Shown: in pieces, positions 39,342 to 41,366 of the stretch | How the letters are laid out: each line of letters starts with the position of its first letter | How positions within the stretch are numbered: the stretch's first letter is position 1 | DNA from: an uncultured Clostridia bacterium | Lineage (GTDB): Bacteria; Bacillota; Clostridia; Oscillospirales; Acutalibacteraceae | Assembly (NCBI GenBank): GCA_947369085.1 | Contig: CANBJR010000004.1 | Coordinates: 1 to 64,000, forward strand | Reading direction: 5' to 3' | DNA: 64,000 nt | Position numbers and translations under genes: made by a program | The notes under the pieces: model-generated | Told to the model about the DNA's origin: nothing | Database searches by the model: none | The model's input: only the letters and a program-made list of their open reading frames with translations

Positions 39342-40250
39342 ATGAATACTAACGATAAATCCGCTTTTGTCGCTATAGTCGGCAGACCGAATGTTGGCAA
39401 AAGCTCAATACTAAACAGACTTCTCGGACAGAAAATCGCAATTGTTTCAAGCAAGCCGCAGACCACCAGAAACAGAATTACGGGTGTGCTTACAGACGGT
39501 GAATATCAGCTTGTTTTCTTTGATACGCCCGGTATGCATAAACCCAAAAATTCACTGGGCAAGTATATGGTGCGTTCCGTAAATGAATCCGTAGGCGGAG
39601 TTGACTGCTGTATGCTCGTTGTTGAGGCAGACAAAGAACCCGGAAACACGGAGATTGCGCTCATTGAAAAATTCAAGGCACTTGAAATGCCTGCAATTCT
39701 TGCCATTAACAAAATTGATATGCTCAGGGAAAAAGACGCTTTGATGAAGCAGATTCTTGACTACACAAAGCTCTATAATTTTGAGGCTGTCGTGCCGGTA
39801 AGCGCACAGGACGGCAGCGGTATGAGCGAACTTCTGGACGAGCTTAAAAAGCAGTCGAGTGAGGGAGGTCATTACTTTGACGATGATACTCTCACCGACC
39901 AGCCCGAAAGGGTAATTGTAGCCGAGATTATCCGTGAAAAGATTTTAAGACTCTGTGACAAAGAAATTCCGCACGGTACTGCTGTTGTAATCGAAAAAAT
40001 GAAAACAAGGGACAACGGTATTTTGGATATTGACGCAACTATTTTCTGTGAGCGTGACACGCATAAGAGAATAATTATAGGAAAAAGCGGCGCAATGCTC
40101 AAAAAAATCAGCACGTTTGCCCGTCAGGATATCGAAAACTTTTTTGACTGCAAGGTGTTTTTGCAGACGTGGGTAAAGGTAAAAGAGGATTGGCGCAACC
40201 GTGCGCAGATTTTGCAGAATTTCGGTTTTGATGAAAAGAATTTTGATTGA
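39342..40250 (+). CDS. era: GTPase Era
   Basis: GRPNVGKSSILNRLLGQKIAIVSSKPQTTRNRI; C-terminal KH domain. Confidence 0.97.
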   Translation: MNTNDKSAFVAIVGRPNVGKSSILNRLLGQKIAIVSSKPQTTRNRITGVLTDGEYQLVFFDTPGMHKPKNSLGKYMVRSVNESVGGVDCCMLVVEADKEPGNTEIALIEKFKALEMPAILAINKIDMLREKDALMKQILDYTKLYNFEAVVPVSAQDGSGMSELLDELKKQSSEGGHYFDDDTLTDQPERVIVAEIIREKILRLCDKEIPHGTAVVIEKMKTRDNGILDIDATIFCERDTHKRIIIGKSGAMLKKISTFARQDIENFFDCKVFLQTWVKVKEDWRNRAQILQNFGFDEKNFD

Positions 40251-40720
40251 TGAGAGCAGTATTAACTAAAGCGGTGTTTTCCGATTGCGGACAAATCCAT
40301 AAAATGCAGGTTTCGGCATTTGCTGAACTGCTTGAAAAATATCGTGACTATGAAACAAATCCTGCGTCGGAATCACTTGAAAAGATACAAAATAAATTCA
40401 GCCAATCCTTTACCGATTATTATTTTATTATGCTCGGAAATACAAAAATCGGCGTTATGAGAGTAGTAAGATTAAGCGACACAGTTTGCAGAATATCGCC
40501 GATGTTCATTTTGCCCGAATATCAGAATAATGGCTATGCTCAATATGCTTTGTCGGCTGTTGAAAAGTTATATCCTAATGTAAATGAATGGCAGCTTGAT
40601 ACTATAAAAGAAGAAAGCAAACTTTGCTGTTTGTATGAGAAATGCGGATATACTCCGACAGGCAAAGAAGAAGTCATAAAAGACGGAATGACGATTGTTT
40701 ATTACCGCAAGCAGGTTTAG
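40247..40720 (+). CDS. GNAT family N-acetyltransferase
   Basis: FILPEYQNNGYAQYALSAVEKLYP acetyl-CoA motif; overlaps era stop by 4 nt. Confidence 0.85.
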   Translation: MMRAVLTKAVFSDCGQIHKMQVSAFAELLEKYRDYETNPASESLEKIQNKFSQSFTDYYFIMLGNTKIGVMRVVRLSDTVCRISPMFILPEYQNNGYAQYALSAVEKLYPNVNEWQLDTIKEESKLCCLYEKCGYTPTGKEEVIKDGMTIVYYRKQV

Positions 40721-40750
40721 AATTATGTAAAGCTATAGACTTATTCCAAT

Positions 40751-40776
40751 GTAGGGAACGACCCTTGTGTCGTTCC
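40751..40776. repeat. REP-like palindrome GTAGGGAACGACCCTTGTGTCGTTCC
   Basis: Reverse complement matches 41064-41089 with one mismatch. Confidence 0.85.
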
Positions 40777-40805
40777 TAATGGTTAAAATACCAAGGTGAG
40801 ATTTT

Positions 40806-41300
40806 ATGCCTTTCTTTAGCAGAAAACCGCAACGTCTGAAAAATTATGATTATTCCCGGAATAATGCGTATTTTCTTACAATATGCACGCAGAATAAAAA
40901 ACATATTTTAGGAAGTATTGCAGATGGAAAGATGATTTTAAGCGAGTTCGGCAAACAGGTTGATAACCGTATTTTAAATATTGAAAAAATATGCGGCACC
41001 AAGATTGAAAATTACGTGATTATGCCTAATCATATTCATACTTTGCTTTTGATTGACGGTATAGGAACGACACAGGGGTCGTTCCCTACAGTATCTCGGA
41101 TTTTGCAGAAATTAAAATCTGTTACAACATTAGATTATATTATCGGTGTTAAATCAGGTTTATATGAACCCTTTGAAAATAAAATCTGGCAAAAATCTTT
41201 TCACGACCATATTATCCGCAATAAAAATGATTATTTGAAAATTTGGGAATATATAGAAAACAATCCTCTCAAATGGAATTTGGATTGCTACTATAATTAA
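40806..41300 (+). mobile_element. REP-associated tyrosine transposase (RAYT, Y1_Tnp/IS200-like)
   Basis: RNNAYFLTICTQNKKHILGSI...ENYVIMPNHIHTLLLIDG (HUH pair HIH); no IS ends apparent. Confidence 0.9.
41064..41089. repeat. REP-like palindrome GGAACGACACAGGGGTCGTTCCCTAC inside the RAYT coding sequence
   Basis: Inverted near-identical copy of 40751-40776; translated in frame as GTTQGSFPT. Confidence 0.9.
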
Positions 41301-41366
41301 AATATCCAGAATCTGCTTTATATAAAATCGCACTATCCGAAAACAATAAATTCGGAGGTGTTTTAA

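Follow-up and report, generated by a model that had tools for sequence, protein, structure and literature searches.

REP-type GTAG hairpins occur within the coding sequences of RAYT transposases far above chance across the family. In the gene under study, which lies in the 64-kb stretch of DNA analysed here (the window), one REP of a convergent pair, with GTAG on the coding strand, is found in the 5' leader, while the other, with GTAG on the template strand, is found inside the coding sequence. The reading that we favour and consider probable from the sequence comparisons below is that of a REPtron whose convergent REP pair lies partly within the gene. The pair would be the sequence that the transposase itself recognises; a constraint on the nucleic acid would preserve it, and it would serve as a linked seed substrate, perhaps with feedback as a second role.

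The features of the locus are the following.
40751..40776, plus strand: left REP, found by motif search, with its GTAG foot at 40751-40754, an 8-bp stem and a 6-nt loop.
40793..40800, plus strand: putative ribosome binding site AAGGTGAG, picked by eye from the sequence.
40806..41300, plus strand: RAYT (TnpA-REP) coding sequence, 164 amino acids, from profiles, alignment and fold.
40914..40937, plus strand: equivalent of site A (see below), a turn between strands 36-39 and 42-45 in the model.
41031..41039, plus strand: HuH motif H76-I77-H78, from the alignment.
41064..41089, minus strand: right REP, at site B within the coding sequence, with its GTAG foot at 41089-41086 on the minus strand; it encodes GTTQGSFPT.
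41250..41252, plus strand: codon of the catalytic tyrosine Y149, from the alignment to 4er8.

An earlier note on this DNA had taken the gene for a RAYT, and this is now supported by several findings. The 164-amino-acid open reading frame matched Pfam Y1_Tnp above its curated cut-off (E = 1.3e-6), and NCBIfam REP_Tyr_transpos just under its cut-off of 80 (71.1 bits, E = 8.8e-20). The protein has the Y1 HuH transposase fold, with the HuH motif and a single tyrosine; its predicted model is confident (pLDDT 88.9), and it resembles E. coli TnpA-REP (4er8) in sequence and in fold (Foldseek TM 0.61). W128, Q129, D134, H135 and R138 align with the residues of the E. coli enzyme whose roles in reading GTAG are described in the available text of PMC6006769. 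Furthermore, GTAG-tagged REPs adjoin the gene and are dispersed in its genome, as is the mark of a RAYT. We infer that this RAYT recognises the REP within its own gene.

The right REP consists of GGAACGACACAGGGGTCGTTCC (41064-41085) followed by CTAC (41086-41089). An inverted copy of GGAACGACACAGGGGTCGTTCC with one mismatch is present at 40755-40776, preceded by GTAG at 40751-40754, and ends 29 nt 5' of the start codon. Each REP thus has GTAG at the 5' foot of an 8-bp stem with a 6-nt loop, and the two face each other; they differ only at one loop position, the stems being identical. Allowing up to three mismatches, they are the only matches in the 64-kb window, and shuffled versions of the window gave none. 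The coordinates and the open reading frame (40806-41300) bear out the earlier description of a palindrome that is in frame in the RAYT, encodes GTTQGSFPT downstream of the HuH motif and has an inverted, one-mismatch copy upstream. The idea of a REP doublet spanning the 5' half of the gene also holds, the stretch 40751-41089 having the layout of a REPIN, with inverted REPs and GTAG at both outer ends. In the model, the internal REP encodes a predicted surface loop, which precedes helix 96-116.

The palindrome is a genuine REP, as had been supposed: the 26-nt motif, tagged with GTAG, was found at 16 places in the 2.18-Mb genome with up to three mismatches (none with the reversed sequence as a control), and several of these copies form convergent doublets about 53 nt apart (GTAG-REP...REP-CTAC). 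Another genome of the genus (G001) contains 43 copies, many of them as doublets; among the other 38 genus genomes searched, 37 had none and one had a single copy. Of the copies whose surroundings could be read, that in the RAYT is the only one lying in a reading frame that stays open for 150 nt in both directions, one copy at a contig edge being unjudgeable. The exact window REP was not found in viral contigs. Distant RAYT matches numbered one in phages and four in plasmids, all below 60% identity.

A protein search of the window's genome (G000) revealed no second full-length copy of its RAYT. Remnants of a second RAYT are present at C26:30258-30485 (L282), C29:17-133 (L281) and C23:34296-34412 (L280). 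The C26 remnant contains, in frame, a REP of its own that differs from the window's, GTAGGGACACGGCACGCCGTGTCC, the other strand of which reads GHGVPCPY and which has a facing partner 171 nt away. The C29 and C23 remnants stop inside the gene near the REP position, as though the assembly had broken at a repeat. G001 has 43 copies of the REP, yet no RAYT was found in it; the gene may have been lost or may lie in a gap, since several REP copies border a run of N or the end of a contig. A pair on contig C41 of that genome, with the same spacing as in the window (313 nt), was considered as an orthologous RAYT and rejected, the interval being a scaffold gap of N. At the locus of G001 corresponding to window positions 40249-41339 (C22, L226), era and recO are adjacent, and the GNAT-like gene and the RAYT of the window are both missing. 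G001 has a REPIN between recO and mutS2 that is missing from the window.

The survey of relatives drew on homologs from genome contigs, on 391 genomes of the class and on extra regions, and yielded 161 distinct near-full-length RAYT domains. These were chosen for their resemblance to RAYTs from the genus of the window, so that the sample is not random; they come mainly from Clostridia, and most of the genomes are MAGs. At least one strict GTAG hairpin was found in the gene's own coding sequence in 119 of the 161, compared with a mean of 2.3 genes and a maximum of 7 in 50 rounds of synonymous-codon permutation. In total, 202 hairpins were present, against 2.4 expected from synonymous-codon shuffles. 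A relaxed detector confined to two sites found site A filled in 91 genes, site B in 119 and both in 81 (expectation, 1.2 for A and 2.6 for B).

We considered the possibility that the hairpins are a by-product of constraint on the loop peptides. Gly, Pro and Thr are abundant in the loops, and codons for these residues are able to pair, but synonymous shuffles, which leave such peptides unchanged, gave 2.3 genes instead of 119 and refute this explanation; stems also persist while peptides differ. We give it practically no credence. The earlier note had named as telling against its proposal a situation in which homologs encode the same peptide without the palindrome and the motif is not repeated. 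We found instead that many homologs retain the site-B palindrome while sequence and peptide change, and that the motif is repeated.

Mapped onto the protein alignment, the hairpins lie at two fixed sites. Site A is a turn after the first strand, before the HuH motif and before the first helix; site B is a loop that follows the HuH strand and leads into the next helix. The orientation was '+' at site A in 79 of 80 cases and '-' at site B in 107 of 119, and 70 genes had A+ and B- together; the binomial P for orientation is tiny, though P values here are nominal, the genes surveyed being related and not independent. A '+' REP was found at site B in 12 genes, 10 of which also had a '-' REP there (double-foot REPs or whole REPINs, mainly outside Clostridia). 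In three non-clostridial genes (L072, L074, L084), whole REPINs with different left and right REPs are in frame at site B. The REP at site A is nearly always in one reading phase, whereas all three phases occur at site B, indicating that the latter has probably been filled more than once.

The window gene has no REP at its site-A equivalent (40914..40937), where many relatives carry a '+' REP. More generally, an upstream '+' REP was present in 16 of the 38 genes with B and without A, but in only 2 of the 70 with both (P = 4e-7). Genes with neither showed a weak tendency to a flanking '+' REP upstream and a '-' REP downstream (18:10 and 10:17, respectively; P = 0.06). It thus seems that the convergent pair is the constant and that its position varies: both REPs outside, as in the classic REPtron; the left outside and the right inside, the intermediate state of the window gene; or both inside. 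Genes with both A and B are scattered across the whole family tree, implying many changes on a tree whose bootstrap support is not fully settled, and the scatter arises in part because the strict detector misses weak stems.

The RAYT of L046 (1505-2027) groups with that of the window in this not fully settled tree; it contains an identical 26-nt REP, but at a third loop of the gene, which lies after the first helix and ahead of the HuH strands. This, together with the many genes lacking one or both in-gene REPs, indicates that A and B are not used without exception. Site A of L229 (G429:C22; 57-nt period) and site B of L227 (G281:C50; 51-nt period) each contain three REP units in tandem and in frame, creating long repeat peptides within the transposase. 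Sites A and B therefore also simply tolerate insertions, and the tandem units and the alternative loop of L046 indicate that REPs do enter RAYT genes.

In the 70 A+ B- genes, the similarity between A and B was 0.91 within a gene and 0.535 between genes. For 44 genes, the nearest relative was less than 70% identical; B of the same gene matched A better than did that of the relative in 37 of these, equally in 2 and less well in 5. Peptides vary between genes while the stems persist. In pairs of genes with 70-80% identity, identical residues shared the same codon in 0.95 of REP codons and in 0.58 elsewhere; for this test it is enough that a hairpin is detected in one gene of the pair. The REP detector used throughout demands pairing and so inflates apparent conservation. 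Codon identity and stem matching point to constraint acting on DNA or RNA, or else to repeated copying between the sites.

Such constraint might reflect autoregulation of the mRNA as the main role of the REPs, either a 26-bp RNA duplex or local hairpins limiting translation or binding the RAYT. Consistent with this, 63 of 70 genes have A paired with B in their minimum-energy folds; in the window, the leader REP pairs along its whole length of 26 nt with the REP inside the gene, so that the start codon is enclosed; and the REP codons are conserved. An IS200 transposase is regulated by a hairpin in its 5' leader. Yet, pairing between A and B follows automatically from their being inverted copies and by itself is no evidence of function; the putative ribosome binding site is not buried by the REP duplex; and the GTAG feet are kept, though RNA pairing alone does not need them. 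We know of no RAYT that binds RNA. As the main role, mRNA autoregulation appears improbable to us.

With few exceptions, the REPs that we searched for were common only where the genome's own RAYT carries them. GTAGGGGAGCGCATTGCGCTCCC was confined to the three tested genomes that have it in their RAYT; the three genomes with GTAGGGACGANCATNGNTCGTCC in their RAYT each contain about 40 copies of it, and among the other 21 genomes it was present only in two (5 and 3 copies). In G034 and G012, where the in-gene pair spans 168 nt, all 14 dispersed doublets (16 of 16 with the two RAYT genes included) consist of one A-type and one B-type REP, like the in-gene pair. The in-gene segment was considered as the origin of these dispersed REPINs and discarded, their interiors being unrelated to the gene in both genomes; no dispersed copies of an in-gene A-B interior were noticed in the genome searches. 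In G228 (92% complete) and G343 (96%), the in-gene pair is the only genomic match with up to three mismatches, and in G229 it is nearly the only one. Abundant REPs are thus unnecessary for an in-gene pair. A past REP population or a recent arrival of the gene is possible in G228 and G343.

These data also bear on another explanation, in which the RAYT, in moving REPs, inserts some of them into its own gene, where they persist, devoid of function, only if the protein tolerates an insert in a loop. In-gene REPs would then match those of the host because these are what the enzyme moves. The three reading phases at site B, the tandem arrays of L227 and L229, the alternative loop of L046, the whole REPINs at site B in some non-Clostridia and the location of both sites at turns or loops in the model all agree with it. 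Passive insertion does not account, however, for the fixed and opposite orientations at A and B, for the two genomes without any REP outside the gene, or for a left REP that is either upstream or at A and rarely at both. Moreover, no other gene was clearly hit among the REP copies examined in G000 and G001. We hold this explanation, which is close to a suggestion in the available text of Quentin et al. (PMC6006769), to be unlikely. The related proposal in the earlier note, a REP inserted into a tolerant linker of its own transposase, is upheld as regards the predicted surface loop, but leaves unexplained the two sites with their opposite orientations, the matching stems and the genomes in which the pair is the sole copy.

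The internal REP of the window is itself an instance of an already published phenomenon. In the available text of Quentin, Siguier, Chandler and Fichant (2018, PMC6006769), in-frame REPs in the tnpA-REP gene, generally between HuH and the tyrosine, are a feature of subclass 2.4, which is mainly cyanobacterial and Bacteroidetes, and are suggested to be of little impact because they lie in a peripheral extension. The window gene resembles this subclass in having an in-frame REP between HuH and Tyr, a GTAG foot and also flanking REPs; the comparison made here is one of REP features. The site before HuH, the fixed facing orientation, the stem matching, the presence of the left REP at either of two places and the in-gene pairs that lack dispersed counterparts were not found in the available passages of PMC6006769 and PMC3733652.

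Comparison with other systems helps to delimit the arrangement. The E. coli TnpA-REP (4er8) REPtron shares the HuH-Y1 fold, the catalytic residues, the aligned GTAG-reading residues and a genomic REP family, but its REPs flank the gene, whereas in the RAYTs described here the coding sequence contains one REP of the pair or both. REPINs and BIMEs share the doublets of GTAG-REP and inverted REP-CTAC, dispersed in the same genomes; unlike them, the in-gene pair encloses coding sequence, and what lies between its two REPs bears no relation to the interiors of REPINs dispersed in the genome. Rickettsia palindromic elements and other intragenic REPs, reported for other genes by Di Nocera et al. (2013; available text of PMC3733652), are likewise palindromes translated in frame; they sit in genes for repair, replication and so on, whereas here the host is the gene of the presumed recognising enzyme. 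Finally, IS200/IS605 elements (TnpA of IS608 and ISDra2) have a Y1 HuH fold and hairpin ends with a tetranucleotide foot. Their ends flank the whole element, while the right hairpin of the window is inside the coding sequence, and hairpins so placed could not mobilise an intact gene.

We return to the REPtron with a partly internal pair. Convergent REPs that normally flank a RAYT would have come to lie within its coding sequence; many related RAYTs have the left REP in the gene as well, and their coding sequence itself then holds a REPIN-like unit. The pair would be the putative recognition sequence of the transposase, retained through a constraint on the nucleic acid that is supported by codon conservation, intact stems, the matching of A and B and persistence in the absence of dispersed copies. 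Its most likely use would be to ensure that the gene always travels together with an intact cognate substrate, and in some hosts the linked pair may seed dispersed REPINs. A second role may be feedback, the enzyme binding its own single-stranded DNA or its mRNA.

The arrangement bears on how REPs remain matched to their transposase and on how a REP family arises in a new genome. We tentatively suggest, as a broader possibility that we would not yet call probable, that in a large group of RAYTs a pair of transposon ends has evolved into a conserved and functional component of the gene's coding region, being coding sequence and target at once, and that such a gene is a self-contained, self-seeding source of REPs, which could be inherited or transferred without any outside REP. 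These genes form a natural set of coding sequences apparently under protein and hairpin constraint together, and synonymous recoding offers a clean way to test what the REPs do for the RAYT. Should a REP family be founded by the in-gene pair, RAYT genes would bring their own substrate along, and the genomes that have only the in-gene pair would be starting points for watching REP seeding.
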